57,253 nucleotides of DNA from Sulfuricella sp. T08 (GTDB taxonomy: Bacteria; Pseudomonadota; Gammaproteobacteria; Burkholderiales; Sulfuricellaceae). The notes under the pieces are model-generated. The model had not been told where the DNA came from. It was given only the letters and a program-made list of their open reading frames with translations, and did no database searches. The stretch lies in the NCBI RefSeq assembly GCF_000971475.1, contig NZ_DF967557.1:1-57253 (forward strand), given 5' to 3'. This document shows, piece after piece, positions 30,966 to 57,204 of this stretch (the stretch's first letter is position 1; each line of letters begins with the position of its first letter). The position numbers were made by a program, and so were the translations under genes.

Positions 30966-31028
30966 GTAGGAGCGGCGCCCTCGCCGCGATTGTGGATGCG
31001 ATTATCGCGGCGAGGGCGCCGCTCCTAC
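30966..31028. repeat. Palindromic repeat pair, second copy
   Basis: The same 25-base arm as at 29305 occurs at 30966-30990 and, inverted, at 31004-31028, around a 13-base loop. It fills the gap between the globin-GGDEF-EAL gene and the REC-PAS gene. The right arm again provides a TAG stop codon (31027-31025), this time for the GGDEF-EAL gene. Confidence 0.85.
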
Positions 31029-33226
31029 AAAATTTGCGCGGACATTTCCGCGCGCAGATATTGCGCGAGAGCTTCCGCCGTCAGTGGGCGGCTGAAATAA
31101 TAGCCTTGTATCTGATCGCAACCGCCGTGGCGGAGAAACTCCAGTTGCGGCACCGTTTCCACCCCCTCGGCGGTGACTTCCAGGCGCAGACTGTGGGCCA
31201 GCGCAATTACGGCACTGGCGATGGCGGCATCATCCTGGTTGGTGTCGATCTCGCGGACGAAGGTACGGTCGATCTTGAGCCGATTGAGGGGAAAGCGCTT
31301 GAGATAGTTGAGGCTGGAATAACCGGTGCCGAAATCGTCCACCGCCAGGCTCACGCCCATCTCTTTGAATTTGTTCAGCGTGGCGGCAGCCTCCTCCGGG
31401 TCATGCATGATCGCGGATTCCGTGACCTCCAGTTCCAGCCAGCGCGGATCCAAACCGCTGGTGGCGAGGGCGGAAGCCACCATGTTTTCCAGGTGTTCCT
31501 GATGGAACTGCCGGGCGGACAGGTTGACCGCCATTTTCACTGGCGGCAAACCCATTTCCTGCCACTCCCGGTTTTGCCGGCATGCCGTATGTAGCACCCA
31601 TTCGCCGATCGGCACGATCAGCCCGGTTTCCTCGGCCAGCGGGATAAAATTGTCGGGTGCGATCATCCTGCCGTCGCTGCGCTGCCAGCGCAGCAGCGCC
31701 TCGACGCCTGAGGTGCGCCCGCTGGCAAGATCCACCTGAGGCTGGTAATGCAGCACAAATTCGCCCCGCTTCAGTGCGCGACGCAGTTCGCCTTCCATAT
31801 CCAGGCGTTCGATGGCCCGGTCGTTCATCTTGCTGGAATAGAATTGAAAATTCTGGCCGCCCTTTGCCTTGGCGCGGTACATGGCGACATCGGCATTCTT
31901 CAGCAGGCTGGTGACATCCTTGCCGTCGCGGGGATAGAGGCAGATACCGATGCTGCCGCCGGTGGTCAGTTCATACCCGGCGATGGAAAGTGGTTGCGCC
32001 AGAAGCGCGAGGATTTTCTGCACCACCGGGAGCAGGTCTTCCTGGCGCGTCAGCTCAGGGAGCATCACCACGAATTCGTCGCCCCCCAGTCGTGCCACGG
32101 TATCGCCGTTACGCACGGAGTGAGACAGAGCAATGGCGATCTGGCTGAGAAACTGGTCGCCAACCTCATGCCCCAGGCTGTCGTTGATCCGCTTGAAACG
32201 GTCCAGATCGAGAAACATCACGCCCACCTGGAGGCTGCTGCGTTCTGCCGCCCCCAGCGCCTGCCGCAGGCGGTCCTGGAACAGGTTGCGGTTGGGCAGG
32301 CCGGTCAGGCTGTCATGCGTGGCAAGCTGGATCAGCTCCTCTTCGGCCTGTTTGCGCTGGCTGATCTCTTCCACCATGATCAGCAATACCTGCTGGCCCT
32401 CGATGGTCGTCGCCGAAAGGTTGAATTCAAAGTAGCGCGTACCGGCATCTTTGTGCAAGGCGATTTCCACATCATGCCGCGGCATACCTGTAGCGAGCAC
32501 CTCATTTGCCACCAGCTGGAGTGCACTATCAGGGAAAAATCTCACCAGCGGCTGTCCGGCGGAGAATCGCTCTTTTCTCAACCCCAGCATGCGCAGTGCG
32601 GCGCTGTTGGCGGAGATAACGTTCAGGTCGGAATCGGTCGAGAAAAAACCGGCAGGCATGTGGCTTACGATGCGTTCGGCGTAGTCCCTGGCCTCCCGCA
32701 ACGACTTGTGGTCCGCCTGGAAATAGGTGTCCAGCGCCAGTCCCATGTCGAACAGTGCAACCTTGAGCAGGGCATTGAAAACATCGAGGAATCTGACGGT
32801 GTCGCCAGCGCACAATTCCCACACCGTGGGCATCAGCAGCGCCATGTATTTGCGGTAGGCGCCGATGTACCACTGCGGTTCGAGGCCGATCATCTGATGT
32901 ACCACACCGACGCGCAAACGGTCGTGAACGTAATCCTCGCCGTACTCGCCAGCGGTGAGGCTGCTGAAATAGGCCGACTGGGTCTTCTTGAGGCGCTCTA
33001 TTGTCTCGCCGGGCAACAGGGCGCGCAGTTCGTCGAAAGACAGGAAATAATCGTAAAATGCGGCGGTGAAATCCGAGCGTTGAGACTCTAGCTGATCGTG
33101 GATAGCCCGAAGATGGTCAACATCCGCCGCGCCAAATTCGAGAAAACGCTTGCGCAAGGCGATGCCGCGCGCATCCAGACCCAAGTCTTCGGCAATGGTG
33201 GTGGCGGTTTGGCTGACATTCTGCAT
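31025..33226 (-). CDS. Globin-coupled GGDEF-EAL c-di-GMP protein
   Basis: A 733-residue cytoplasmic protein starting at the ATG at 33226, preceded by GGAG; an in-frame extension to 33346 lacks support. Residues about 20-175 are a protoglobin-type haem sensor with the proximal His at 110 in [24 protein letters not shown] domain spans about 185-290. The GGDEF domain has [15 protein letters not shown] at 381-385 and an I-site RNGD just before it. The EAL domain has VEALLRW near 508, [23 protein letters not shown] and GYYFSRP, all intact. Oxygen or another haem ligand probably tunes c-di-GMP synthesis or breakdown. It heads the operon that continues with REC-PAS, HDOD and kinase genes. Confidence 0.94.
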
Positions 33227-33421
33227 GCAACGACGCTCCGTGGAAACTGGTAAGGGATAACAATTACCAGCAACGGGAGTTGGGTTGCCAATTAAATTAT
33301 AGTGTATGAAATTAGCATGGAACAGGCAATAGGATGATTTTTGCATCGAGAAAATCTACCCATGAACCTCAAGCTGGCTATAGGTTTGGGAGGGGCGCCA
33401 GAGGAAACTCGCCGGTTACCG

Positions 33422-41935: not shown

Positions 41936-42304
41936 ATGTCTAAAACCGTCATGATCGTGGATGATTCCGCTTCACTGCGGCAGGTGGTCGGTATCGCGCT
42001 GCGCGGCGCGGGCTACGAGGTGATCGAGGCTTGCGATGGCAAGGATGCCATCTCCAAACTGATCGGGCAGAAGGTGCACCTGATCATCAGCGACGTCAAC
42101 ATGCCTAATATGGACGGCATTACTTTCGTCAAGAACGTCAAGCAGATGCCGAACTACAAGTTCACGCCGGTGATCATGCTCACCACCGAATCTCAGGATG
42201 GAAAAAAGCAGGAAGGACAGGCGGCGGGCGCCAAGGCTTGGGTGGTCAAGCCATTCCAGCCGGCGCAACTGCTGGCGGCGGCATCCAAGCTGATTTTGCC
42301 GTAA
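41936..42304 (+). CDS. cheY: CheY-type single-domain response regulator
   Basis: A 122-residue receiver with no output domain. The acidic pair is in VMIVDDSASLRQ, the phosphoacceptor Asp is in LIISDVNMPNMDG, the Thr is in IMLTTES and the Lys is in WVVKPFQP. The ribosome binding site AGGAGG is strong. It sits between the CheZ-like receptor gene and the STAS gene and would be phosphorylated by the CheA encoded downstream. Its output may be motor control or another process, since no flagellar or pilus gene lies in the window. Confidence 0.93.
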   Translation: MSKTVMIVDDSASLRQVVGIALRGAGYEVIEACDGKDAISKLIGQKVHLIISDVNMPNMDGITFVKNVKQMPNYKFTPVIMLTTESQDGKKQEGQAAGAKAWVVKPFQPAQLLAAASKLILP

Positions 42305-42319: not shown

Positions 42320-42628
42320 ATGATCTCGCACGACGTGGATAACGGCATCTACCGGGTCAAGGTGGAAGGCGAAATGACCATTTACCATGCGCTCGAGCAT
42401 AAGCAGGCGCTGCTGGAGTGCCTGGGCCACTGCACCGAGATGGAAATCAACCTGTCCGGGGTAAGCGAGATGGATACCACCGGTTTCCAGTTGCTGGTGC
42501 TGGCCAAGCGTGAAGCAGAGAAGATCGGCAGGCCGATGCGCTTGGTTAAACACAGCCCGGCAACGCTGGAAGTGATGGATTTGTTCCACATGGCGGCCTA
42601 CTTCGGCGACCCGGTGGTGATGCCGTAA
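42320..42628 (+). CDS. STAS-domain protein (anti-sigma factor antagonist type)
   Basis: A 102-residue single STAS domain of the SpoIIAA type. The segment EINLSGVSEMDTTGFQLLVL is the conserved phosphorylation loop, with Thr residues where SpoIIAA has Ser in DSSG. No partner anti-sigma kinase is encoded nearby. STAS proteins of this kind recur in chemosensory clusters of Proteobacteria, where their role is unsettled. It starts 15 bp after cheY and precedes cheA, from which it is separated by a palindromic repeat. Confidence 0.9.
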   Translation: MISHDVDNGIYRVKVEGEMTIYHALEHKQALLECLGHCTEMEINLSGVSEMDTTGFQLLVLAKREAEKIGRPMRLVKHSPATLEVMDLFHMAAYFGDPVVMP

Positions 42629-42726: not shown

Positions 42727-44961
42727 ATGAACATGGATGATGCCCTGCAGACGTTCTTGATCGAGTGCCGTGAACTGTTGCAGGCGATGGAAGAGGCGCT
42801 GCTCAACCTGGAGTCCGAACCGGACGACAAGGAAGCGATCGGTGCGGTGTTTCGCGCTGCGCACACCATAAAGGGATCGGCAGGATTGTTCGGTCTGGAC
42901 ACGATCGTTGCCTTCACTCATGTTGCTGAGAACGTGCTCGACAAGGTGCGCAATGGAGAGGTGCCGGTCGACAGTAATCTGATCGCTCTTCTGCTTTCTT
43001 CGGGCGACCATATCGCCATCCTGGTGGAGCAGATCGCAGGGCAGGGTGTAGAGCCGGATGAGGCTACCTGCGCCGCTGGGGAGGCCTTGCTGCAACAGTT
43101 GAAAACTTACCTTGCGGGGGAGGGTCAGGGTGTCCAGATCACCCAGTCCAGCGTGACGCAGCCGCATGATGCCCCGCTGCAGTCCAGCGGCGGCGGCCTG
43201 GTGGGTAGCGATACCTGGCACATCTCGCTGCGCTTCGGCCATGACGTGCTGAAGAACGGCATGGACCCGCTCTCGTTCCTTCGTTACCTTGCCACCCTGG
43301 GCGAGATCGTCAGCGTCACTACCCTGCCCGACGCCATGCCCCTCGCCGAACAGATGGACCCCGAATGCTGCTATCTTGGTTTCGAGATCGATTTTCGCAG
43401 CACTGCCGACAAGACGATGATCGAAGGGGTGTTCGAGTTCGTGCGCGACGACTGCAATCTGCGCATCCTGCCGCCACACAGCCGGGTGACGGAATATATT
43501 CAGTTGATCAATGATCTGCCCGAGGACAAGGTGCGCTTGGGCGATATCCTGATCAACAGCGGCGTTGTGACGCAGAAGGAACTGGACGAGATGCTGATAT
43601 GTCAGGCCATGCGTTCCTGCATAGCGGAAGATGCACAGTCTGGCGAGCATGTTCCACCGGTGCCGCCGCTCGGCGAAATCCTGGTGCAGGAAGGGATGGT
43701 GCAGAAGGAACTGGTGGACGCGGCGCTGGGGAAACAGAAGCAGGCGCGGGATAACAAGGCGCAGGAAAGCCGCTACATCCGTGTCCACGCCGACAAGCTC
43801 GACGACCTCATCAATCTGGTCGGGGAACTGGTCATCGCCAGCGCTTCGGCTGCTCTGCTGTCACAGCGTTCGCGCGACACGATGCTGCACGAGGCAACCT
43901 CGACCATGTCACGGCTGGTGGAAGAAATCCGCGATGGCGCATTACAGCTGCGGATGGTGCCGATCGGCGAAACCTTCAATCGCTTCCACCGCGTGGTGCG
44001 CGATGTCAGCAATGATCTGGGCAAGGAAATCGGGCTGGAGATCGGTGGCGCCGAAACCGAGCTGGATAAATCGGTGGTGGAGAAAATCGGCGACCCGCTG
44101 ATGCACTTGGTACGCAACTCCATGGACCATGGCATTGAATCCGCAGAATTACGCCAGCAGCGCGGCAAATCGGCAAAGGGAACAGTCCGGCTTAACGCCT
44201 TCCACGAGTCGGGCAGCATCGTGATCGAAGTTGGCGACGATGGCGGCGGGTTGAACCGCGACAAGCTCCTCGCCAAGGCTATCGAGCGCGGCCTGGTTGG
44301 CCCCAATCAGAGCCTCACCGATCAGGAAGTGTATGCGCTGATATTTGAAGCCGGCTTTTCTACCGCCGATGCCGTCACCAGCATTTCAGGGCGCGGCGTC
44401 GGCATGGACGTGGTGCGGCGCAACATCGAGGCGCTGCGCGGCATGATCGAGATCGATAGCGTGCAGGGCGTCGGCACCACTATCCGTATCCGCCTGCCGC
44501 TGACCCTGGCGATTATCGACGGCTTCCTTCTGGGAGTGGGCAGCGCTTCCTACGTCGTGCCGCTCGACATGGTGATGGAATGCATCGAGCTCAGCGAAGC
44601 GGAGCGCCAGGAAACCCGCGAGCGCAACTACATCAACCTGCGCGGCACGGTGCTGCCGTTCATTCGTCTGCGCGATCACTTCCGCGAGCAGGGCAAGGCC
44701 GGGCGGCGCGAGAACATCGTGGTGGTGCAATACGCCGGGCAGAAGGCAGGTCTGGTGGTGGACGAACTGATGGGCGAATTCCAGACCGTGATCAAGCCGC
44801 TGGGAAAGATATTCGGCAACCTCAGGGGAGTCAGCGGCTCGACCATCCTCGGCAGCGGCGAAGTGGCGCTGATCCTGGACGTGCCGGCGCTGATCCAGCG
44901 CTCGGTGAACCAGGAAGCAAAATCGGCGGGACAGGAAAAATTGGTAGCATTGCTTAAGTAG
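42727..44961 (+). CDS. cheA: Chemotaxis histidine kinase CheA with MshEN-like linker
   Basis: A 744-residue CheA. The HPt domain has the phosphoacceptor His46 in [12 protein letters not shown]2-like region spans about 160-260. The dimerisation domain starts near 350 ([15 protein letters not shown]). The ATPase domain has the N box LVRNSMDHG (461-469), G1 at VGDDGGGLN and G2 at GRGVGMDVV, and a CheW-like domain ends the chain. Between P2 and P3 lie two repeats matching the MshEN c-di-GMP motif: R270, L271, G272, L275, G279, L286, L290, Q293 and L315, G316, L319, G323, L334, Q337. No receiver is attached. It is the kinase of the surrounding chemosensory cluster. Confidence 0.95.
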
Positions 44962-44987: not shown

Positions 44988-46640
44988 ATGTTCAAAAACA
45001 TGAAAATCGGGATGCGTTTAGGATTGGGATTCGGAGTGCTGTTGCTGATAATGGTGGGCATCATCCTGATCGCCCTCAGCCGCATGTCCGTTATGTATGA
45101 CGGGGTGAACAATATAACCAAGGTAAACAACGTCGAGCTCAAGCATGTCGTTGAGATGCGTGGTGCAGTGCGCAACATTTCCGTGGCGGTGCGCAACATT
45201 GCCTTGTTGACCGAAATGTCGGAGATGCAGAAGGAAAAAGACCGCATCGATGCGCAACGAACGAAGTATTCCGAGGCACGGGACAAGCTGGAAAAAATGT
45301 TCAACGAACTGCCCGGCACCTCGGCGGAAGAAAAGCAGCTCCTGGCCAAGATCGGTGAAGACTTGAAGGCCGCCAAACCCCTGGTGGACAAGGCAATTCA
45401 GCTGGGGATGGAGAACAAGGCGGCGGAAGCCACGGCTACTCTGCTCAAGGAAGTGCGGCCTGCCCAGCGCAAGCAACTGGATGACCTGGATGCCTTGGCG
45501 GAATTGGAAACGAAGCTGAATGACGAGGCTGCCGATGCGGCGGAAAAAGCCTACATTTCGGCCCGTAACCTGATTATTTCCCTGGGGGTGGCCGCCTTGA
45601 TTCTGGGTGCTTTGGCCGCCTTCATCGTCAGCCGTGCCATCACCCTGCCCATCGGCAAGGCGCTGGGGGTGGCCAACCAATTGGCCGAGGGTGATCTGGC
45701 GGTGAAGATCGAGGTCACATCGAGGGACGAAACCGGCCAGTTGCTGGAGGCGATGCGGAACATGGTGGCCAAGCTGACAGAGATCATTACCGAGGTGAGG
45801 GGGTCGGCAGACAGCCTTTCCAGCGCATCGGAAGAAGTCAGTGCCACGGCACAGTCGCTGTCCCAGGGCTCCTCAGAGCAGGCGGCGAGCGTGGAAGAAA
45901 CCAGTGCCTCGATCGAACAGATGAGTGCCTCGATCAGCCAGAATACCGAAAACGCCAAAGTGACTGACGGCATGGCCTCGAAGGCGGCGAAGGAAGCTAC
46001 CGAGGGCGGTGAGGCGGTGAGGTCCACGGTCGCTGCCATGAAGCAGATCGCCGCCAAGATAGGCATCATCGACGACATCGCCTACCAGACCAACCTGCTC
46101 GCGCTCAACGCCGCAATCGAAGCGGCGCGCGCCGGCGAGCACGGCAAGGGCTTCGCGGTGGTGGCGGCGGAAGTGCGCAAGCTGGCCGAGCGCAGCCAGG
46201 TAGCGGCGCAGGAAATTGGCGAAGTGGCTTCCAGCAGCGTGCAGCTGGCAGAGAAGGCGGGCAAGCTGCTGGACGAGATCGTGCCCTCGATCAACAAGAC
46301 TTCCGACCTGGTGCAGGAAATCACCGCCGCTTCGGAAGAGCAGTCATCCGGCGTCGGCCAGATCAACACCGCCATGAACCAGCTCAACCAGACTACGCAG
46401 CAGAACGCCTCCGCTTCGGAAGAGCTGGCGGCCACCGCCGAGGAAATGAGCGGCCAGGCCGAGCAGCTGCAGCAACTGATGGCCTTCTTCAAGCTCGAGG
46501 GGGGCGCCGGTTCCGCATCGAGGCAGCCGGTGAAAAAGGCTGCCGGCAAGAGCAGGCAGTCGGTCGCGCACATGACCGACAAGCTGTCGCAAAAGGTGCA
46601 CGGTGCCGCACCGAGCGAGCTTGAATTCGTTAAGTTCTAG
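44988..46640 (+). CDS. Transmembrane methyl-accepting chemotaxis protein
   Basis: A 550-residue chemoreceptor. The first membrane segment ([19 protein letters not shown]) is followed by a periplasmic four-helix-bundle ligand domain (about 32-190), a second segment ([20 protein letters not shown]), a HAMP domain and a long coiled-coil signalling domain. The tip is [20 protein letters not shown] near 365-385. Methylation-type Glu/Gln pairs occur ([17 protein letters not shown] and [10 protein letters not shown]). The C-terminus ends in EFVKF, which fits the aromatic-xx-aromatic pentapeptide used to tether CheR and CheB. It lies between cheA and cheW and is probably the main ligand-sensing receptor of the cluster. 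Confidence 0.95.
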
Positions 46641-46649
46641 GAGGTGGCC

Positions 46650-47195
46650 ATGGGTGCAATCATACAGGCGGAGCAGCATCAGCTTGATGCCGGCGAGGAA
46701 GGGCATAACCAGTACCTGACTTTCCTGCTGGGCGGGGAAATGTTCGCCATTCCCATCCTCAACATCAAGGAAATCATCGAATACGGCAGCCTGACCACGG
46801 TGCCGATGATGCCGGAGTTTATCCGCGGCGTGATCAACCTGCGCGGCAGCGTGGTGCCGGTGGTGGATCTGACCGTGCGCTTCGGCAGGCAAACCACCCC
46901 GGTCACCAAGCGTACCTGTATCGTGATCATCGAGATCGAGTCCGATGGAGATAAGCAGGATGTCGGCGTGGTGGTGGATACCGTTAACGAGGTGCTGGAG
47001 ATTCCGCGTGCCGAGATCGAGCGGGCTCCCTCATTCGGCGCCAAGATCCGCGCTGATTTCATCAGCGGCATGGGCAAGATCGCCGGCAAATTCGTGGTTA
47101 TCCTCAACGTCAACCATGTGCTTTCAATTGATGAAATGGCGATGCTCGGGCAGGTGGGCGGCACCGAACCGGAAATGATGGCATTGCCGGCATAA
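46650..47195 (+). CDS. cheW: Chemotaxis coupling protein CheW
   Basis: A 181-residue CheW linking receptors to CheA. The conserved core reads YLTFLLGGEMFAIPILNIKE, then MPEFIRGVINLRGSVVPVVDL and VVVDTVNEVLEI. The ATG at 46650 is preceded by AGGAGG; an upstream in-frame GTG at 46644 lies inside that signal. The C-terminus is slightly longer than in E. coli. It is nine bases after the receptor gene and upstream of a 66-bp intergenic repeat. Confidence 0.95.
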   Translation: MGAIIQAEQHQLDAGEEGHNQYLTFLLGGEMFAIPILNIKEIIEYGSLTTVPMMPEFIRGVINLRGSVVPVVDLTVRFGRQTTPVTKRTCIVIIEIESDGDKQDVGVVVDTVNEVLEIPRAEIERAPSFGAKIRADFISGMGKIAGKFVVILNVNHVLSIDEMAMLGQVGGTEPEMMALPA

Positions 47196-47200
47196 AATCA

Positions 47201-47266
47201 GTAGCCCGGATGAAGCGCAGCGAAATCCGGGAGTTCCTCGATTCCGCTGCGCTGCATCGAGGCTAC
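47201..47266. repeat. Intergenic inverted repeat starting GTAGCCCGGATG
   Basis: The left arm (47201-47231, GTAGCCCGGATGAAGCGCAG and onward) pairs imperfectly with the right arm (ending ATCGAGGCTAC at 47266). This is a well-known type of dispersed intergenic repeat in Proteobacteria with a GTAGCC head. It lies between cheW and the receptor-tip gene, so the transcript would carry a long hairpin there. Confidence 0.75.
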
Positions 47267-47301
47267 ATTGCCGTGGGCTTGATGAGAAGAAAGAGGTTGT
47301 C

Positions 47302-47910
47302 ATGGGAGAGATCAAGGACGATACCGCCGACCAGGCAGCCGACCTGCGCCGTGTGGTGATGGTCAACGAGGATATCAAGAAAGTGATCCGGATTTCATCC
47401 GAGGTGAATCTGGTTGCCCTCAATGCGATGCTGGTCGCCAAACGTTCAGGCGAGAAGTCGCGCGGCTTCGCGGTGGTTTCCTCGGAGCTAAGGGTGTTCA
47501 GTCGCAAGCTGGAAGTCGCGATGACCGGTCTGGGCGCCTTGATTTTCGGGCTGGTACGCGATGCAGCCGCAATGCAGAAGCAGAGCCGCGAGCGGCGTCA
47601 TTGGCTGAATACCGTGGCGCATGGCGGACCTGGTGCCGACCTGGTGGCGCCGATGCTGGCGCGCAAGGAAGAGACAATGGGATCGACCGGGCAGGAAATC
47701 AGAAGCGATTGGCACAAGCTGCAAATCCAGCTTGGCCGCGTCTTGCAGATGTGCGAAACCGGCGGCGCACTATCGCGTAGCGCCAAGATCGAGGCGGTGT
47801 ACGGTGGCGACATGAGCGCCACCCTGAAGCAGGTGGCAAACCAGATCGAGGAAACGGTAAACGAGATTTTCTCCACTCTGAAATTGCTGCGCACGCAACT
47901 GGCGGAATAA
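47302..47910 (+). CDS. Soluble receptor-tip protein lacking a sensor domain
   Basis: A 202-residue cytoplasmic protein. Residues about 31-70 match the chemoreceptor hairpin tip (SSEVNLVALNAMLVAKRSGE, then GFAVVSSELRVFSRKL), but the classical [13 protein letters not shown] is altered at several positions. There is no membrane segment, HAMP or ligand domain, and the remaining residues are helical (ADLVAPMLARKEETMGST and a final amphipathic helix). Its stop overlaps the start of the di-iron protein gene in TAATG, so both are made together. By analogy with Treponema it may connect the di-iron sensor to CheA, which is inference. Confidence 0.82.
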   Translation: MGEIKDDTADQAADLRRVVMVNEDIKKVIRISSEVNLVALNAMLVAKRSGEKSRGFAVVSSELRVFSRKLEVAMTGLGALIFGLVRDAAAMQKQSRERRHWLNTVAHGGPGADLVAPMLARKEETMGSTGQEIRSDWHKLQIQLGRVLQMCETGGALSRSAKIEAVYGGDMSATLKQVANQIEETVNEIFSTLKLLRTQLAE

Positions 47911-48653
47911 TGAAAAAACTTGAATTCATCTACGAAAATGGCCCCCACAAATGGGCTGCGATTTCACGTGACCCAGAAAAGCCCAACTATTTGATCGATA
48001 CCAACGAATACCTGGTGATCAATGGTAACGAAGCGATCCTGACCGATCCGGGCGGGATGGAAATCTTTTCTGCGGTGTTTTCCGCGATCAGCGCGGAATT
48101 CGATCCTTACCGCATCAGCCGGTTATTTGCCTCGCACCAGGACCCGGACATCATTTCCGCACTGGCGCTGTGGCTGGATTTCAATCCCGACCTGAAGTGC
48201 TACCTGAGCTGGCTGTGGGCGACATTTGTTCCCCATTTCGGTGGCAAGGAGGATACCTTCATTCCCATTCCCGATGAAGGCATGAGTATTCCACTCGGCA
48301 ATCTCACTCTGGAGGCGGTGCCGGCACATTATCTGCACTCTTCCGGCAATTTCAATCTTTATGACGCCAAGGCAAAAATCCTGTTTTCTGGCGACGTTGG
48401 CGCGGCTATGCTGCCGCCGGGCGAAGATAGCCTGTTCGTTGAGAATTTCGATCGTCACATCCGACATGCCCAGGGTTTCCACCGCCGCTGGATGGGGTCG
48501 AATTCGGCCAAGCTGAACTGGTGCGAGCGTGTCAGTCGTCTCGACATCGACATGCTATGTCCACAGCACGGTGCGATTTACCGTGGCGAGGACGTGAAGA
48601 GATTTATCGATTGGTTCTCCGAGCTGGAAGTCGGCTCCGGCATCAAGGATTAG
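47910..48653 (+). CDS. Metallo-beta-lactamase-fold di-iron protein, ODP-like oxygen sensor
   Basis: A 247-residue metallo-beta-lactamase-fold protein without a flavodoxin domain. Likely iron ligands are His76, Asp78 and Asp80 in ASHQDPDI, His140 in VPAHYLHSSGNF, Asp162 in FSGDVGAAM and His220 in LCPQHGAIY. These match the FprA-type di-iron centre, with Asp where FprA has Glu. The closest described protein I know is Treponema denticola ODP, a di-iron oxygen sensor that acts on chemotaxis through a sensorless receptor. The neighbour here is exactly such a receptor, overlapping by one base. An oxygen or NO sensing role is inferred, not shown. Confidence 0.85.
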   Translation: MKKLEFIYENGPHKWAAISRDPEKPNYLIDTNEYLVINGNEAILTDPGGMEIFSAVFSAISAEFDPYRISRLFASHQDPDIISALALWLDFNPDLKCYLSWLWATFVPHFGGKEDTFIPIPDEGMSIPLGNLTLEAVPAHYLHSSGNFNLYDAKAKILFSGDVGAAMLPPGEDSLFVENFDRHIRHAQGFHRRWMGSNSAKLNWCERVSRLDIDMLCPQHGAIYRGEDVKRFIDWFSELEVGSGIKD

Positions 48654-48663
48654 AAGAGTCGCG

Positions 48664-49470
48664 ATGGCTACGATCAATATCAGCGATCAGGAGTTCAGCC
48701 AGTTCCAGGGCTTGATCCACAAACTGGCCGGCATCTACCTGTCGCCGGCGAAAAAGGCGCTGGTGTGCGGGCGGCTGGCAAAGCGCCTGAACCAGCATCA
48801 ACTTGGCAGCTATGCGGAGTACTTCAAGTTGCTCACCGGTCAGCACAATACGGCTGAACTGCAGGTAGCGGTGGACCTGCTCACCACCAACGAGACCTAT
48901 TTTTTCCGCGAGCCCAAGCATTTCGATTTTCTGAGCACCAAGATTCTGTCCAGCCACAAGCCGGGTCGCAGTTTCAGGGTGTGGAGCGCAGCCTGTTCCA
49001 GCGGCGAGGAGCCCTACAGTATCGCCATGGTGCTTGCGGACCATCTGGGCGAAGGGCCGTGGGAGGTGGTAGCCACGGATCTCAGCACGCGGGTGCTGGA
49101 CAAGGCTCGTGCCGGGCATTACCCCATGGAGCGGGCCAGCGGCATTTCCCGTGAGCATCTGTCCAGCTATTGCCTGAAAGGGGTGGGCTCGCAGGAAAAT
49201 ACCCTGCTGGTGGATAAGAAACTGCGCAGCCGGGTGAATTTCATGCAGGTCAACCTGAATCAGTCATTGCCGGCACTGGGCGAGTTCGACCTCATTTTTC
49301 TGCGCAATGTGATGATCTATTTCGATATGGAAACCAAGCGCCAGGTGATGCAACGGCTCCTGCCCCTGCTCAGGCCGGGTGGACATTTTCTGATCAGCCA
49401 TTCGGAAAGCCTGAACGGTGTCGTGGATACGTTGCAAGTGCTGTCGCCGTCCATTTATCGCAAGCCATGA
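48664..49470 (+). CDS. cheR: Chemotaxis methyltransferase CheR
   Basis: CheR methylates glutamates of chemoreceptors using S-adenosylmethionine. The N-terminal helical domain is followed by the SAM-binding domain with VDLLTTNETYFFREP, the signature VWSAACSSGEEPYSIAM and LIFLRNVMIYFD. The 268-residue length fits a CheR without TPR extension. It starts ten bases after the di-iron gene and overlaps cheD by four bases. The EFVKF tail of the receptor at 44988-46640 is a possible docking site. Confidence 0.95.
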   Translation: MATINISDQEFSQFQGLIHKLAGIYLSPAKKALVCGRLAKRLNQHQLGSYAEYFKLLTGQHNTAELQVAVDLLTTNETYFFREPKHFDFLSTKILSSHKPGRSFRVWSAACSSGEEPYSIAMVLADHLGEGPWEVVATDLSTRVLDKARAGHYPMERASGISREHLSSYCLKGVGSQENTLLVDKKLRSRVNFMQVNLNQSLPALGEFDLIFLRNVMIYFDMETKRQVMQRLLPLLRPGGHFLISHSESLNGVVDTLQVLSPSIYRKP

Positions 49471-49961
49471 GTCAGGCCACGTTGCAGACGGTTGCTCCAG
49501 TTGAAATCTACCTGAAGCCGGGAGAGTTCCAGTTTGGTGGCGGCAGCACTCGCATGCACACCCTGCTGGGATCCTGCGTGGCGATTACGCTATGGCACCC
49601 GGTTTTGCATATCGGTGGCATGTGTCATTTCATGTTGCCCAGCCGGGGTGGACAGCAATCATCCGGGTTAGACGGTCGTTATGCCGACGAGGCGATGCAA
49701 CTGTTCATGCAGGAAATCAGGCAGCGCAATACCCGCCCGGATGAATACCAGACCAAGCTGTTCGGCGGCTGCCGCATGTTTCCTCAAATAACCGGCAAGA
49801 AGGCTTCCGAGGTGGGCATACGGAATATTGAGGCAGCCAGAAGTCTGCTGTCGGCTAACGCTTTTCGCATCCAGAGCGAAGACGCTGGCGGCAGCGGACA
49901 TCGCCGCGTTATCCTGGATTTGCGCGATGGTAACGTCTGGGTAAAGCATGAAAAAATTTAA
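49467..49961 (+). CDS. cheD: Chemoreceptor glutamine deamidase CheD
   Basis: A 164-residue CheD. The catalytic Cys is in HTLLGSCVAITLW and the His is in GMCHFMLPSR, with a Thr expected later. It deamidates receptor glutamines and in some systems also binds CheC-type phosphatases. It overlaps cheR by four bases, so the two are translationally coupled. The presence of CheD together with CheB gives this system two routes to deamidation. Confidence 0.94.
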   Translation: MSQATLQTVAPVEIYLKPGEFQFGGGSTRMHTLLGSCVAITLWHPVLHIGGMCHFMLPSRGGQQSSGLDGRYADEAMQLFMQEIRQRNTRPDEYQTKLFGGCRMFPQITGKKASEVGIRNIEAARSLLSANAFRIQSEDAGGSGHRRVILDLRDGNVWVKHEKI

Positions 49962-50009
49962 GTATTCAGTGCTCCTGCAACCTGTTTATCAGGCACCTGG
50001 AATATTTTC

Positions 50010-51083
50010 ATGAAAAAAATCAAGGTAATGGTGGTGGATGATTCGGCCGTGGTGCGCCAAGTGGTACAGGCCATCCTCGATCAGGAGCCAGACATCGAGG
50101 TGATCGGCGCGGCCTCCGACCCGATCTTCGCGATCGATCGGATGAACAAGCAATGGCCGGATGTGATCGTGCTCGACATCGAGATGCCGCGCATGGACGG
50201 CATCACCTTCCTGAAGAAAATCATGGCTGAACACCCCACCCCGGTGGTGATCTGTTCCTCGCTGGCTGAAAAGGGGGCTGCGACGACGATGCAGGCGCTC
50301 GAGGCGGGTGCCGTGGAGATTATCACCAAGCCGCAAGTTGGTCTCAAGCGCTTCCTCGAAGAATCCTCTCATGAGTTGGTGACGGCAGTGCGCGCTGCGG
50401 CTATGGCCAACGTCAAGCGGCTGAAAGCCGCGCCGATCGCTGCGGTGAAGATGGCGCCCGCACCAAAACTCAATGCCGATGCCATTTTGGCCGCTCCCGG
50501 TAGCCATGCCATGGCGCAGACTACCGAGCGTATCGTCGCCATCGGCACCTCCACCGGCGGCACCCAGGCGCTGGAAGCGGTGCTCACTGCGCTGCCGAGG
50601 GTTTGCCCCGGCATTGTCATCGTCCAGCACATGCCGGAGAAATTCACGGCTTCATTTGCCGCGCGCCTCAACGAACTGTGCCAGATTGAGGTGCGCGAGG
50701 CACGGCACAATGACCGGGTCATTCCGGGACTCGCGCTGATCGCACCGGGCGGCAAGCACATGCTGTTGAAGCGTAGCGGTGCCTACTACCATGTCGAAGT
50801 GGTAGACGGCCCACTGGTCAACCGCCATCGTCCCTCGGTGGATGTGCTGTTCCGCTCGGTGGCGAAATTCGCCGGCAAGAACGCTACCGGCTTCATCATG
50901 ACCGGCATGGGTGACGATGGCGCCAGGGGGATGAAAGAGATGCACGAGGCCGGTGCGCCCACTATCGCTCAGGATGAGGCAACCTGCGTGGTGTTCGGGA
51001 TGCCGAAGGAAGCGATCAAGCTGGGAGGTGTTGACCGGGTGATGGGGTTGCAGGACATTCCACGGGCGATTTTGTCGGGTTAA
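50010..51083 (+). CDS. cheB: Chemotaxis methylesterase CheB
   Basis: A 357-residue CheB. The N-terminal receiver has [12 protein letters not shown], the phosphoacceptor Asp in [13 protein letters not shown] and a Lys later, and is joined by a linker (about 130-170) to the methylesterase domain. The catalytic triad is visible as the Ser in [12 protein letters not shown], the His in IVQHMPEKF and the Asp in [12 protein letters not shown]. It removes methyl groups from receptors when phosphorylated by CheA. It lies 48 bp after cheD and 17 bp before the FIST gene. Confidence 0.96.
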
Positions 51084-51100: not shown

Positions 51101-52243
51101 ATGAAAATAGAACAACGTTACTGGACGGAAAGCGATGGCTGGCAGACTGAAGGGGTAAGTACCCTGAATGGCGGCGATGCACAATGGGTGCTGGTTTTTG
51201 GCGGTGTGGAGAAATTGCGCGAGGCGGCGTGGCTGCAGGATACGAAACAGCGCTACCCCAAGGCGCTGATCATGGGCTGCTCCACTGCGGGCGAGATTTG
51301 CGCCACGCGGGTGCGCGACGAATCGCTCGTCACCACTGCCGTACAGTTCGAGCACACCCGGATTGAAATGGCGCAGGCTGATATCGGGCAGATGCAGGAC
51401 AGTTACGATGTCGGCGTGCGTCTTGCGCAGTCACTTGATCAGGAGGGGCTGACGCATGTGCTGGTACTGTCGGACGGCCTCAGGGTGAACGGTAGCGAAC
51501 TGGCGAAAGGATTGCGTGAGAATCTGCCCCTAAGGGTAGCGGTCACGGGCGGGCTGGCTGGCGATGGTGGCCGTTTCCAGCATACCCTGGTGTGTGCCGA
51601 TGGCCATGTGGCGGAAGGAAAAATCGTGGCGCTGGGTTTCTATGGCGAGCGTCTCAAGGTGGGTTATGGCTCCCTCGGGGGCTGGGACGTTTTCGGCCCG
51701 GAGCGCCTGGTCACGAAATCCAGCGGCAATGTCCTGTACGAGCTGGACGGCCAGTCGGCGCTGGGGCTGTACAAGAACTACCTGGGCGATCATGCGGCGG
51801 GCCTGCCTGCCACAGCTTTGCTGTTTCCTCTGGAGTTGCGCAACGCAGAAGGAGGCCACAGCCTGGTGCGCACCGTGCTTGGAATCGACGAGGCAGCACA
51901 AAGCATGACCTTCGCCGGGGATATGCCGGAAGGCGCTCACGCCCGTCTGATGAAGGCTAATTTCGATCGACTGGTGGACGGTGCGAGCGGTGCGGCCAAG
52001 GCGAGCCATGAAGCGCTGGGGAGTACGCCCCCTGATCTGGCGATCCTGATCAGTTGCGTGGGGCGCAAACTGGTGCTCAAACAGCGCATCGAAGAAGAGG
52101 TTGAAGGCGTGCGCGAGGTATTGGGATCGCACGCCGTGCTGACCGGTTTCTATTCCTACGGCGAGATTTGCCCCCACGATGCGATCACCGGCTGCGAGCT
52201 GCATAATCAGACCATGACCATCACCACTTTTTCGGAGAATTAG
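51101..52243 (+). CDS. FIST-domain sensory protein
   Basis: A 380-residue soluble protein consisting of FIST N- and C-terminal domains. Typical features are ALIMGCSTAGEICATR, VAVTGGLAGDGGRFQHT and the ending GFYSYGEICPHD. FIST domains are predicted small-molecule (possibly amino acid) sensors found next to chemotaxis and two-component genes. No output domain is attached, so it probably signals to the kinase encoded three bases downstream, with which it is co-transcribed. The ligand is unknown. Confidence 0.93.
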   Translation: MKIEQRYWTESDGWQTEGVSTLNGGDAQWVLVFGGVEKLREAAWLQDTKQRYPKALIMGCSTAGEICATRVRDESLVTTAVQFEHTRIEMAQADIGQMQDSYDVGVRLAQSLDQEGLTHVLVLSDGLRVNGSELAKGLRENLPLRVAVTGGLAGDGGRFQHTLVCADGHVAEGKIVALGFYGERLKVGYGSLGGWDVFGPERLVTKSSGNVLYELDGQSALGLYKNYLGDHAAGLPATALLFPLELRNAEGGHSLVRTVLGIDEAAQSMTFAGDMPEGAHARLMKANFDRLVDGASGAAKASHEALGSTPPDLAILISCVGRKLVLKQRIEEEVEGVREVLGSHAVLTGFYSYGEICPHDAITGCELHNQTMTITTFSEN

Positions 52244-52246
52244 ACC

Positions 52247-53719
52247 GTGCATCGTTTGCTACAGAGGCAGATCAGCCGCTTTCTCGATGGCCAGGCCGCC
52301 ATGCCGGAGGGGTTGTCGCTGTTCCTCGCTGCGGTGAACGAAGCCTATGAAAGTGCCGATGCCGATCGTTTGCTGATCGAGCATTCGCTGGAGCTGATGT
52401 CGCAGGAACTCACCGAGCGCAACACCGACCTGCGTACTCAGCTCGTCGAGCGGCAGCATGCCGAGGAGCAACTGGAAAATCTTCTGTCGTTGCTGGGCAC
52501 CACTCTGGAATCTACCGCCGATGGCATTCTGGCGCTGGACAAAGAGACCAGGGCCGTGCGCTTCAATCAGCGTTTTGTCGAGATGTGGGGCGTGCCGGAT
52601 GAAGTCCTCTCTTTCTGGAGCCATGATTCCTTGATGCAGCATCTGTTGGGGCAGGTTACGGATCCCGATGCATTTATGGAAAAACTAAGTTATCTGTGCC
52701 AGCACCCTGAAGCGGAATGCTATGACACCTTCAACTGCATCGATGGCAGGGTGATCGAGCGCTATTCCCTGCCTCAGCCGCTGGGCGTGGATAACGTGGG
52801 CAGGGTGATGAGCTTCCGCGATATCACCGCGCGCAAGCAGGCCGAAGAAGCGCTGCGGCTGGAAAAGGAAGAGCAGAAAGCCCTGATCAAGAAGCTCGAA
52901 GAAGCGCATAACCAGTTGCTGCAATCGGAAAAAATGGCATCCATTGGCCAGCTGGCGGCGGGGGTGGCGCACGAGATTAATAATCCCATCGGTTACATCA
53001 ATTCCAACTTCCGTACCCTCGGGGAATATGTGGAAAAACTGTTCCGGGTAACAGATGCCTACGAGCGCACCGAGTCGGCGCTGGCTGGGCAGGCTCTGCT
53101 GGACGAAATCCGAATGCTGAAGCAGGAGGCGGATTGGGAATATCTGAAACAGGATGTTCGCGACCTGCTCAGGGAGTCCGGCGAGGGAATCGGACGGGTG
53201 AAGCAGATTGTGCAGGACCTCAAGGATTTCTCACACGTCGATCAGGCGGAGTGGCAATGGATGGACTTGCATAAGGGCATCGACAGCACGCTCAACATCG
53301 TTCACAGCGAAATCAAGTACAACGCCGAAGTGATCAAGGAATTTGGCGTTATTCCACAGGTAGAGTGTCTGGTTTCCCAGCTCAATCAGGTGTTCATGAA
53401 CATGCTGGTGAACGCCTCCCATGCCATTGGCGATAGTGGCCGTGGCAGCATCACAATCCGCACTGGCGCGGAGGATGAAATGGTCTGGGTCGAATTCACG
53501 GATACCGGTAAAGGTATTCCGCCAGAAAATTTAAAGCGGATTTTTGACCCCTTCTTTACCACCAAGCCGGTGGGCAAGGGAACCGGGCTGGGTTTGTCCC
53601 TTTCCTACGGCATCATCGAGAAACACCAGGGCAGAATCGAGGTGGAAAGCGAAGTCGGCAAGGGTACGACTTTTCGCTTGAGATTGCCTGTCAGCCAAGG
53701 GTTGCCCAACACTTTGTAA
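52247..53719 (+). CDS. Soluble PAS sensor histidine kinase, FIST partner
   Basis: A 490-residue cytoplasmic kinase starting at a GTG with CGGAGAA upstream. After a helical N-terminus, a PAS domain spans about 85-205 (STADGILALDKETRAVRFNQ), then a coiled coil. The H box is in IGQLAAGVAHEINNPIGYI, the N box is NMLVNASHAIG, and the G boxes are FTDTGKGIPP and GKGTGLGLSLSYG. Much of the catalytic region parallels the kinase at 27491-29263. It follows the FIST gene by three bases. The REC at the end of the next protein is a candidate phosphate acceptor. Confidence 0.92.
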   Translation: MHRLLQRQISRFLDGQAAMPEGLSLFLAAVNEAYESADADRLLIEHSLELMSQELTERNTDLRTQLVERQHAEEQLENLLSLLGTTLESTADGILALDKETRAVRFNQRFVEMWGVPDEVLSFWSHDSLMQHLLGQVTDPDAFMEKLSYLCQHPEAECYDTFNCIDGRVIERYSLPQPLGVDNVGRVMSFRDITARKQAEEALRLEKEEQKALIKKLEEAHNQLLQSEKMASIGQLAAGVAHEINNPIGYINSNFRTLGEYVEKLFRVTDAYERTESALAGQALLDEIRMLKQEADWEYLKQDVRDLLRESGEGIGRVKQIVQDLKDFSHVDQAEWQWMDLHKGIDSTLNIVHSEIKYNAEVIKEFGVIPQVECLVSQLNQVFMNMLVNASHAIGDSGRGSITIRTGAEDEMVWVEFTDTGKGIPPENLKRIFDPFFTTKPVGKGTGLGLSLSYGIIEKHQGRIEVESEVGKGTTFRLRLPVSQGLPNTL

Positions 53720-53982
53720 AGAGTCATTGTTTACTTCGAATGTCTGACCTCAACGGAATGGTAAGCCAGTGCTCTGACTTGCAAGCTGCCGTTGGCCGCA
53801 AGTAATATCGCCGAGGAAGCCTACCAGCGGTGCACAATTTCCTTAGGGCGGTGTCGTCCTGGGGATTTCATGCGACTTCAGTCAGGGTTTTCCCTGAAAA
53901 GAGTCGGATTTGTGTGTGTTTAAGTAATTATGAATTAAGATGGAATCATACTTGCAGCTGAACCAATAATAATGGGAGAGGT

Positions 53983-56900
53983 ATGTTTCGGCTGATTCTT
54001 GGTCTGCGCTGGCGGTTGATGTTGCTGATCCTGGTGGCCGTATTGCCGGCCTTTCTGCTGGTGCTCTATTCTACCTTTGAGCAGCGGCGGGAAGTGGCGG
54101 AATCTGCGCAGAAAGAGGCGTTGAAGATGGCCCAGACCGTTGCCGAGGGACACCGGGCCACATCCTCCTCCGTGCGCCAGTTGCTGAAGGGTCTTTCGAC
54201 CCTGGCGGAAATTCCGGATGCCCAATCGGCGGGTCCCTGCAACAAGGTGATGGCGAATATCCTGCGTTACAGCTCGGATTATGCCAATGTCGGTGTCGCG
54301 CTCAGCAACGGCGAAGTGGTGTGCAGCGCGCTGCCGTTGCCCGGGCCGGTAAACGTGGCGGATCGTGTCTTTTTTCAGCGAGCTGTATCGACTAGAGAAT
54401 TTTCCATTGGTGACTTTCAGATTGGCCGTATCGCTGCCAAACGCGGCATTCATTTTGGCTATCCGCTCCTCAATGCCGACAAACAGGTTTGGGGGGTGAT
54501 ATTCGTTCTTCTCGACCTTGACCCCTTGAATGAGAGCCTGGCTGGAACCCCGCACCTGGAAACAGGGGATGTTGCCATCTTGCTCGATGGCGGCGGGAAG
54601 ATTCTGGCCCACCATCCCGATCCTGCAAATTACGTCGGCAAGTCGATGGCCACCCTGCCGCTGTACAAGCAAATTCAGCAGTTGCAGGGTGAGGGAACTT
54701 ATGACGGTGTCGGTCTTGATGGCGTCCGGCGGATATTTGCGTTTGCTCCCTTGTTCAGTCGGCCCAGCTGTTGTGCCTATGCGGTGGTGGGCATTCCCGC
54801 CGAGAGGGTGTATGCGAAAGCCAATCATGCATTTGTCCGCAATGTCTTGCTGATGCTGGGGATGGGCCTGCTGGTGCTTACGCTGGCATGGGTGGGCGGT
54901 GACATGCTGGTGCTGAAGCGTGTTCGGGCTCTGTCCAGTGCGGCCAGGAGAATGGGCCAGCGCGATCTTACTGTCCGCTCCGGGCTGCCTCATGACGAAG
55001 AGGAACTGGGCCAGCTGGCGCGCTCGTTCGACGCGATGGCGGATAACCTGGAGGAATGGCAAAAGCAGGTAATGCAGTCCAGCCATGAACTCGAGAAGCT
55101 CGGCTACCGCAATCAGCTGATTCTGGATTCCGCCGGAGAAGGAATTTGCGGGGTGGACAGGGAAGGCATGATTACCTTCGTCAATCCTGTGGCTGCATCC
55201 ATGCTGGGTTATCAGGTGGACGAGTTGCTTGGTTTGTCCCTTCATCACACCGTGCATTGCAGGAAGGCTGACGGCACACTGTTTCCGCATGAAGAATGCC
55301 CGATGCATGCGGCGATTGAGGACGGCATTAGCCATCAAGGCAGCGATGAGATGCTCTGGCGCAAGGATGGCAGCGGTTTTTATACGGATTATGCGGTCAT
55401 TCCCATGCTTGAAGGCGAGAAGGTTACCGGTGCCGTAGTGACCTTCAAGGACATCACCGAGCGCAAACGCCACGAGGAGCAACTGGCGCATCAGGCCACG
55501 CACGATACTCTGACCGGTCTGGCCAATCGTACCATTCTCAACGACCGCATCGGTCTGCTGATCGAACGGGCGGCCCGGGAAAAATCTGTGGTGGCTCTGT
55601 TGCTGCTCGATCTTGACCGCTTCAAGGAAATCAATGACAGCCTGGGTCATGGTGCAGGCGATGAACTGTTGCGTGGCATGGCGGTGCGCCTGACCGATCT
55701 GATGCGCGACAGCGATACGGTGGCTCGCCTGGGGGGCGACGAGTTTGTCATTCTGGTGGAAATGGATATAGCCGATAGCGCGATTCCGGTTGCCCAGAAG
55801 ATTCTCGATGCCCTGACCAGACCCTTCAGTATTTCCGGTCGAGAGGTATTCATTGGCGCCAGTATCGGCATCAGCTTGTACCCCAAGGACGGTGATAGTG
55901 GTGAAGAATTGCTGAAGAATGCCGACGTGGCGATGTACCGCGCCAAAAAGCGCGGCCGCAACACTTTCCGTTTCTATAACGAGGGTATGAACACCAATTC
56001 TGTCGAGAGGCTGAGTCTGGAAACCAGTCTGCGCCATGCGGTGGATAACGGTGAACTGCTGCTGTATTACCAGCCGCAGGTTAATCTGCATAGTGGCGAG
56101 ATCATCGGTGCCGAGGCATTGATCCGCTGGCAGCATCCGGAAATGGGGCTGGTTTCTCCGGCGAAATTCATCCCGCTGGCGGAGGAAACCGGTCTGATAT
56201 TTCCGATCGGTGAATGGGTGATGCGGACGGCCTGCGCTCAAATCAAGGCCTGGCAGGGTGCCGGGGTGATGACGCCGCCCGTGGCAGTGAACCTGTCAGC
56301 GCATCAGTTCAGGCAGCGTCATCTGGTCAAGATGACGACCGGAGTGTTGCTGGACTCGGGTATCGACGGGCGCTATCTGGAACTGGAGATGACTGAAAGC
56401 GCGATGATGGAGGATGCGGACCGGGTAATCAAGGTGCTGCGGGAACTGAAAGATGCAGGGACTTCAATTTCGATTGACGATTTCGGCACCGGCTATTCTT
56501 CGCTCAGCTACCTGAAGCAATTCGCCATCGACAAGCTGAAAGTGGATCAGTCTTTCGTCCGGGAGATTACACGAGACTCCAAGGATGCCGCCATCGTCGT
56601 CGCCATTATCACTATGGCGCACAGCCTGGGGTTGAATGTCATTGCCGAAGGGGTGGAAACGGAAGGGCAGCTGGAGCACCTGCGCAGCCATGGCTGCGAC
56701 GAAATGCAGGGTTATTTTTTCAGTCGCCCGGTTCCAGTCGGTGATTTCGAGCAGATGCTGCGGAGTGGGCGAAAGCTGACGCTGAGTGGCCAAGCTGACG
56801 AGAGCTGGCAACGTACGCTGTTGCTGGTGGACGATGAGTCGAATGTTACGGCTGCCTTGACCCGTCAGTTCCGCCACGAGGGTTATCGTATTCTGGTTGC

Positions 56901-57204
56901 TCATAGTCCGACCGAGGCGTTTGAGCAGCTAGCCAGCCATCGGGTCGGCGTGATCCTGTCAGATCAAGGAATGTCGGAAATGAGTGGCATCGAATTCTTG
57001 AGCAGGGTCAAGCGGCTTTACCCCGAGGTGATGCGTATTGTTCTTTCCGGCTACACCGACCTGAAACTGATCGCTGAGGCCTTCAATCAAGGCGCAATTT
57101 ACAAATACATCACCAAGCCCTGGGATGACAGGGAAATGCTCAACTCAGTCAAAGAGGCATTTCTGGAGCACGAAGGCCTTTGTTCCAGGAAGTTGCGTAC
57201 CTAG
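53983..57204 (+). CDS. Cache-HAMP-PAS-GGDEF-EAL-REC multidomain protein
   Basis: A 1073-residue inner-membrane protein. Membrane segments at about 11-29 and 286-306 enclose a dCache-like periplasmic sensor. HAMP follows (to about 360), then PAS (about 372-492, with two Cys in HCRKADGTLFPHEECP). The GGDEF domain has DLDRFKEIND, GGDEF at 584-588 and an I-site RDSD before it. The EAL domain has AEALIRW near 710, [23 protein letters not shown] and GYFFSRP, intact by motif. The C-terminal REC (from about 945) has LLVDDESN, the Asp in ILSDQGMSEMSG and the Lys in YKYITKPWDD. A REC at the C-terminus of an EAL domain is unusual. It has a 263-bp leader. Confidence 0.95.
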   Translation: MFRLILGLRWRLMLLILVAVLPAFLLVLYSTFEQRREVAESAQKEALKMAQTVAEGHRATSSSVRQLLKGLSTLAEIPDAQSAGPCNKVMANILRYSSDYANVGVALSNGEVVCSALPLPGPVNVADRVFFQRAVSTREFSIGDFQIGRIAAKRGIHFGYPLLNADKQVWGVIFVLLDLDPLNESLAGTPHLETGDVAILLDGGGKILAHHPDPANYVGKSMATLPLYKQIQQLQGEGTYDGVGLDGVRRIFAFAPLFSRPSCCAYAVVGIPAERVYAKANHAFVRNVLLMLGMGLLVLTLAWVGGDMLVLKRVRALSSAARRMGQRDLTVRSGLPHDEEELGQLARSFDAMADNLEEWQKQVMQSSHELEKLGYRNQLILDSAGEGICGVDREGMITFVNPVAASMLGYQVDELLGLSLHHTVHCRKADGTLFPHEECPMHAAIEDGISHQGSDEMLWRKDGSGFYTDYAVIPMLEGEKVTGAVVTFKDITERKRHEEQLAHQATHDTLTGLANRTILNDRIGLLIERAAREKSVVALLLLDLDRFKEINDSLGHGAGDELLRGMAVRLTDLMRDSDTVARLGGDEFVILVEMDIADSAIPVAQKILDALTRPFSISGREVFIGASIGISLYPKDGDSGEELLKNADVAMYRAKKRGRNTFRFYNEGMNTNSVERLSLETSLRHAVDNGELLLYYQPQVNLHSGEIIGAEALIRWQHPEMGLVSPAKFIPLAEETGLIFPIGEWVMRTACAQIKAWQGAGVMTPPVAVNLSAHQFRQRHLVKMTTGVLLDSGIDGRYLELEMTESAMMEDADRVIKVLRELKDAGTSISIDDFGTGYSSLSYLKQFAIDKLKVDQSFVREITRDSKDAAIVVAIITMAHSLGLNVIAEGVETEGQLEHLRSHGCDEMQGYFFSRPVPVGDFEQMLRSGRKLTLSGQADESWQRTLLLVDDESNVTAALTRQFRHEGYRILVAHSPTEAFEQLASHRVGVILSDQGMSEMSGIEFLSRVKRLYPEVMRIVLSGYTDLKLIAEAFNQGAIYKYITKPWDDREMLNSVKEAFLEHEGLCSRKLRT

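Follow-up and report, generated by a model that had tools for sequence, protein, structure and literature searches.

As far as is known to us, c-di-GMP reaches chemotaxis by way of adaptors, receptors or the motor. The MshEN domain, a c-di-GMP receptor of ATPases, is built on a motif of 24 residues, RLGxx(LVI)(LVI)xxG(LVI)(LVI)xxxxLxxxLxxQ, that occurs as two copies in tandem. The Gly of MshE and the residue that follows it bind the guanine via backbone amides, the Gln binds ribose and phosphate, and the Arg stacks on the base; the isolated MshEN_N region binds c-di-GMP at 0.35 uM, and XpsE represents an MshEN that has lost binding (PMC5013675). Among the related domains of PilF, GSPII-B carries Lys and Leu at the first positions and binds c-di-GMP at 6 nM, and GSPII-C, in which Pro335 at position 1 of motif II is the sole deviation from the consensus, has an affinity similar to that of MshE (PMC11731258); 324 nM is one of two values reported for PilF (PMC12002112). 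Loss of the Arg is thus tolerated in other MshEN domains, as both GSPII-B and GSPII-C bind without it. Since the Pro-bearing motif is the middle one of three in GSPII-C, it belongs to either of the neighboring pairs. In GSPII-A, changes of the Gly and Gln contact residues go with lost binding, and in constructs of this domain a Ser at position 1 of motif II abolished the restored binding, which implies that this position can matter (PMC12002112).

Here we analyze a window of 57,253 nucleotides from Sulfuricella sp. T08 (contig NZ_DF967557.1), whose preliminary description had proposed that c-di-GMP could gate a CheA directly. The idea is less new than it may seem, as Wang et al. 2016 list 'chemotaxis protein kinase CheA' among the associations of MshEN (PMC5013675), which by its name in the text is the domain combination described here. 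In the open-licence literature, supplements excluded, we found no measured binding of c-di-GMP to CheA and no function of an MshEN-CheA protein beyond one sentence in the same paper, and we found no description there of the position, spacer range, invariant ligand residues and loss reported below.

The motif pair between P2 and P3

The gene cheA (42727..44961, + strand) encodes a protein of 744 residues that is identified as a CheA chemotaxis kinase by Hpt, H-kinase_dim, HATPase_c and CheW-like domains, all four above the Pfam cut-offs. P1 (Hpt) spans residues 6-102, P3 (H-kinase_dim) residues 349-407, P4 residues 456-593 and the CheW-like P5 residues 599-725; Pfam reports no P2, and a P2-like domain at about residues 160-250 is inferred from the structural model described below and a listed fold match to 1u0s. 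Residues 270-337, outside all the Pfam domains, form an MshEN_N-type motif pair. Its placement between P2 and P3 in the preliminary description is borne out by the Pfam limits of P1 and P3 and the model-inferred P2-like fold, and inspection of the sequence bears out its reading of the motifs as well. Motif I (43534..43605, + strand; residues 270-293) keeps every fixed position, and motif II (43666..43737, + strand; residues 314-337) departs from the consensus by a Pro in place of the Arg at position 1 and a Val in place of the Leu at position 17, so that Arg heads motif I alone. A stretch matched by the NF053729 model begins at the same base as each motif. The motifs are separated by a spacer of 20 residues (43606..43665, + strand; residues 294-313), and a junction of 11 residues (43738..43770, + strand; residues 338-348) leads from motif II to P3.

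As Pro at position 1 is allowed by the relaxed motif in the paper that defined the domain (PMC5013675), the pair consists of one strict and one relaxed copy in tandem. A six-frame translation of the window (stop-free stretches of at least 30 residues; 89,110 residues in total) contains a single strict match, namely motif I of this CheA, and two relaxed matches, both in the same protein. From the composition of this CheA, 1.5e-7 strict and 0.0016 relaxed matches are expected per protein, and on these counts we rejected a chance origin of the match.

Profile comparisons point in the same direction. NF053729 (NCBIfam c-di-GMP_motif, described as 'cyclic di-GMP-binding domain-containing protein, MshE-related') models exactly such a motif pair, and the segment scores 44 bits with it (cut-off 38), the full-length protein 37.1 bits, slightly below that cut-off, and the two halves together 44.6 bits in a search of the organism's own genome. 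The model also matches all 81 segments of the alignment described below at E <= 10, a threshold distinct from the cut-off of the model, with a best value of 9.7e-18. A PDB search with the profile of the 81 segments recovered PilF (3.4e-18), PilB (3.9e-9 and 1.8e-8) and MshE (1.0e-4), all as whole-sequence values; the best single stretch was 1.6e-9 for PilF, located in GSPII-C, and 0.01 for MshE, and further matches were titled 'c-di-GMP binding domain of the ATPase enzyme PilF'. In single-sequence searches PilF ranked first both with a relative bearing a 6-residue spacer (L060; 5e-12) and with the window CheA (6.8e-5), for which no single stretch was better than 0.21. When 232 genomes of the class were searched with the segment profile, 21 matches of at least 73.8 bits were obtained in 15 genomes, the next match being at 46 bits; ten of the 21 (the window protein and L106-L114) are CheA proteins with the segment, and the other 11 are known by frame length only. 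From the weaker matches 16 stretches were taken, 12 of which showed the pattern; of the ten of these that were scanned (L126 and L128 were left out), nine proved to be ATPases with T2SSE and MshEN. The same profile retrieved no other protein at E <= 1 from the organism's own genome, although that genome has MshEN ATPases. In the frames read of the paralogues L002, L003 and L004 and the Hpt protein L007 from this genome (981 residues of a 1903-residue frame for L004), no relaxed motif was found. The first of these paralogues, a CheA of 759 residues (G000:C74), displays repeated GYGFF/GFGFF peptides in its P2-P3 region instead of the MshEN segment.

The Pfam family that bears the name MshEN, PF05157, does not match the window CheA and is absent among the 25 listed of 33 families for the 81 segments. 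In three proteins of the same genome (G000:C67:30354-30785, C74:102618-103028 and C50:56374-56778) the PF05157 match lies beside the NF053729 pair, adjoining rather than overlapping it. We therefore set this family aside as a test of membership; because it adjoins the motif pair and does not cover it, Pfam alone would miss receptors that consist of MshEN_N only.

An AlphaFold2 model of the segment built from the 81 sequences (alignment A1; pLDDT 75, pTM 0.58) predicts helices at residues 271-278, 283-302, 315-321 and 327-349, that is, two per motif and in register with the motifs, with the spacer as its least confident part. Two helices per motif have been reported for MshEN (PMC11731258). A Foldseek search with this model gave 26 matches, none at E <= 0.001 and none to MshEN. 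A second model covering residues 160-410, from 80 sequences (alignment A2, L040 left out; pLDDT 85, pTM 0.53), yielded no MshEN chain among the 50 listed of 1032 matches; those listed consist mainly of small alpha/beta domains of other kinds, with 1u0s, a CheA P2 domain, at rank 23. In the larger model a single helix spans residues 327-381, from the last motif helix through the first helix of P3. The pLDDT averaged in blocks drops to 77 at residues 350-359, near the junction, and the continuous helix may be an artefact of predicting a monomeric fragment.

It could be argued that the match reflects coincidence, or a general helical repeat with no kinship to MshEN, given the outcome of the fold searches, the lack of a PF05157 match and the modest single-sequence support for the window protein. 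We regard this as highly improbable in view of the 1.5e-7 strict matches expected per CheA, the NF053729 score above the cut-off on the segment and the profile match to PilF; moreover, the CheA profile also retrieves T2SSE-MshEN ATPases, and PF05157 covers the part that follows the motif pair. Hence, the interpretation of the segment as an MshEN-type motif pair in the preliminary description is well supported by NF053729, the PDB profile search and conservation, and by these sequence comparisons the segment is almost certainly kin to MshEN.

Conservation, loss and compaction of the module

To assess conservation we aligned the window segment with those of the best 80 of at least 586 relatives from GTDB genomes, giving 81 segments in all; as one of the six search peptides lies in motif II, the presence of the segment in 81 of 81 is biased towards presence. 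Gly-3 and Gln-24 are found in all 81 sequences in both motifs, and motif I additionally shows Thr-13, Glu-16 and Leu-21 in all 81 and Leu-17 in 80. Positions 22-23 of motif I, immediately next to the invariant Gln-24, are variable. Motif II has Val at position 17 in 69 of 81 sequences and Leu at position 21 in 70, and its Gly-10 is kept in 31. The Arg at position 1 of motif I is present in 58 of 81 segments, that of the window included, and position 1 of motif II is most often Pro (54), with Lys in 8 and Arg in 4. In a further sample of 17 distinct relatives, found with the segment profile or a P2-P3 profile (L106-L114 and L132-L140, one pair being identical), Gly-3 is kept in 17 of 17 in both motifs, Gln-24 in 16 of 17 in motif I and in all in motif II, the exception being L140 with a His in place of the motif I Gln; at the head of motif II, 12 of these relatives carry Pro and 2 carry Arg. 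The ligand-contact Gly, Leu and Gln residues are thus kept across the relatives. Conservation of the fixed positions, which the preliminary description had proposed as a check, therefore holds for most of them and fails for the Arg residues (58 of 81 in motif I, 4 of 81 in motif II).

The same description had cautioned that the gap of 20 residues between the motifs might indicate a different fold. The gap is indeed 20 residues in the window CheA, but the concern is largely removed because the spacers of the relatives range from 5 to 28 residues (5 in one sequence, 6 in eight, 9 in 19 and 20 in two) with the motifs unchanged. Judged from this alignment, the 20-residue spacer is ordinary variation, a longer loop between unchanged motifs.

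To examine the distribution of the module we searched 299 genomes of the phylum with a P2-P3 profile at E <= 1e-30, and the same class contributed 15 matches in 13 genomes, other classes 28 matches in 27 genomes. Ten of the 15 same-class matches, the window included, were read and have the full segment, and a further two, not read, align over the full length of the profile. The remaining three (L141-L143), all of one genus, lack the segment and keep both flanks. In a FastTree tree of CheA from which the segment had been removed (rooted on the paralogue L002; L022, L040, L052 and L074 left out), these three join a segment-bearing, plasmid-borne Pseudomonas CheA with support 1.0, and the resulting group falls, again with support 1.0, within a clade of 13 tips that otherwise consists of segment-bearing proteins; they are nested in the same way in a tree computed without the plasmid sequences. 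As the three segment-less proteins nest among segment-bearing ones, the module was lost in them and is separable from the rest of CheA. Segment-bearing CheA proteins in similar che clusters occur on plasmids of Pseudomonas sp. HR96 (L161) and Aeromonas sp. BC14 (L167), scoring 28 and 31 bits with NF053729, below the cut-off of 38. The presence of such clusters on plasmids suggests horizontal spread; homologues on plasmids of Azospirillum, Methylosinus, Rhizobium, Methylobacterium and Vibrio have no module.

Among the matches from other classes, the 17 of 28 that were read (L144-L160) have the two motifs in compacted form; all 17 retain the Gln of motif II and 2 retain that of motif I, and two of the six scanned (L144 and L145) pass NF053729. 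By its sequence, this second CheA branch carries a degenerate MshEN-like pair. That degeneration occurs in the family, with 15 of the 17 compacted proteins lacking the Gln end of motif I, bears on the alternative that the segment derives from MshEN and no longer binds c-di-GMP in the branch of the window CheA, acting instead within the P2-P3 linker as a helical spacer or as a surface for protein docking. Such a loss, for which XpsE provides a precedent (PMC5013675), would be consistent with the scarcity of Arg-1 in motif II and its partial loss from motif I, the variable Gly-10 of motif II, the 20-residue spacer of the window CheA and the His at the motif I Gln in L140. Against it stand the invariance of Gly-3 and Gln-24 in both motifs of all 81 segments and the binding by domains with first residues other than Arg (PMC11731258). 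We consider lost binding unlikely and c-di-GMP binding by the window CheA probable.

Gene neighborhood and proposed function

Upstream of cheA and on the same + strand are genes for a CheY-like receiver (41936..42304) and a STAS protein (42320..42628), both identified with Pfam, as are the products of the genes downstream (44988..51083, + strand), namely an MCP, CheW, a short MCP-like protein, an ODP-family protein, CheR, CheD and CheB. The order MCP, CheY, STAS, CheA, MCP, CheW, followed by CheR, CheD and CheB, is common among the loci of the relatives; a CheY-like protein is found in 72 of 80 of these loci, STAS in 76, the downstream-type MCP in 72 and CheW in 57, many loci ending at contig ends. 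The short MCP-like protein adjoins the ODP-family (PF19583) protein at 47302-48653, and ODP occurs in 7 of 80 relative loci; we presume that the two could form an oxygen or iron sensor pair. Following the che cluster on the same strand, 51101-57204 encodes a FIST protein, a PAS-histidine kinase and a Cache-HAMP-PAS-GGDEF-EAL-receiver protein, and a Protoglobin-PAS-GGDEF-EAL protein, likely an oxygen-sensing c-di-GMP enzyme, is encoded on the opposite strand at 31025-33346.

The preliminary description had also invoked a cluster full of GGDEF-EAL proteins, an argument that weakens on inspection, 2 of the 20 other scanned proteins of the window being of this type. Such a neighborhood was rejected as support for c-di-GMP binding: GGDEF/EAL genes are found in 7 of 80 relative loci, in a partial test that covered flanks of at most 5 kb per side, the GGDEF/EAL gene of the window beginning 9 kb downstream of cheA.

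Taken together, these observations favor a c-di-GMP receptor of the MshEN_N type in the P2-P3 linker, a module that, on clamping its ligand, would alter the position of P1 and P2 relative to the kinase core and thereby kinase output; we assign this reading a probability of roughly 0.6. By analogy with MshEN, the two motifs would form a bundle of four helices in which one c-di-GMP is clamped, each motif taking half of the molecule. Such clamping would shift the placement of P1 and P2 against the P3-P4 kinase core; a possible route is the last motif helix, which in the larger model extends into the first helix of P3. The nucleotide would then raise or lower phosphotransfer to the response regulators of the cluster, with no sign predicted. 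For an effect of c-di-GMP on kinase output, taken by itself, we see even odds. A more specific version, in which c-di-GMP gates the kinase directly, each subunit clamping one c-di-GMP in a bundle whose last helix continues into the P3 dimerisation helix, so that output is set with no need for a PilZ adaptor, and in which spacer changes or deletion of the module let lineages adjust or abandon this input, is put forward tentatively, at somewhat less than even odds.

The segment might instead bind c-di-GMP and act on the location of the kinase or its choice of receptor array rather than on phosphotransfer. Its position outside the Pfam domains, its loss while both flanks stay and the presence of three MCP-type proteins in the che cluster would be compatible with such a role. 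However, the module borders P3, with only residues 338-348 between them, and we view a localisation function as quite improbable. If the reading of the module as a receptor that alters kinase output is correct, a receptor in the kinase linker would connect the signal for the switch from motile to sessile life with the central kinase in a single step. The family lends itself to comparison, as it includes natural proteins whose spacer is short or long, whose motifs are compacted or which have no module.

The candidate resembles MapZ, with CheR, and the Cbp1 receptor in providing c-di-GMP input to chemotaxis; however, MapZ acts on CheR and Cbp1 is itself a receptor, both by means of PilZ, whereas the candidate site described here is part of the kinase. 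MshEN_N of MshE (Vibrio cholerae; PDB 5htl) shares with this CheA the two 24-residue motifs, motif I of CheA fitting all of the fixed positions. In MshE the MshEN_N region is at the N-terminus of the ATPase, the spacer is 5 residues long and a C-terminal subdomain follows the motif pair, whereas in CheA the pair lies between P2 and P3, the spacer has 20 residues, motif II contains the Pro and the Val, and P3 takes the place of the subdomain. GSPII-C of PilF (Thermus thermophilus), the best-scoring stretch of the CheA profile search, likewise has Pro at position 1 of motif II. It contains three motifs as against two in the CheA segment, the first two being 7 residues apart by our own count in the profile alignment as against 20 in CheA, and it binds c-di-GMP by ITC.
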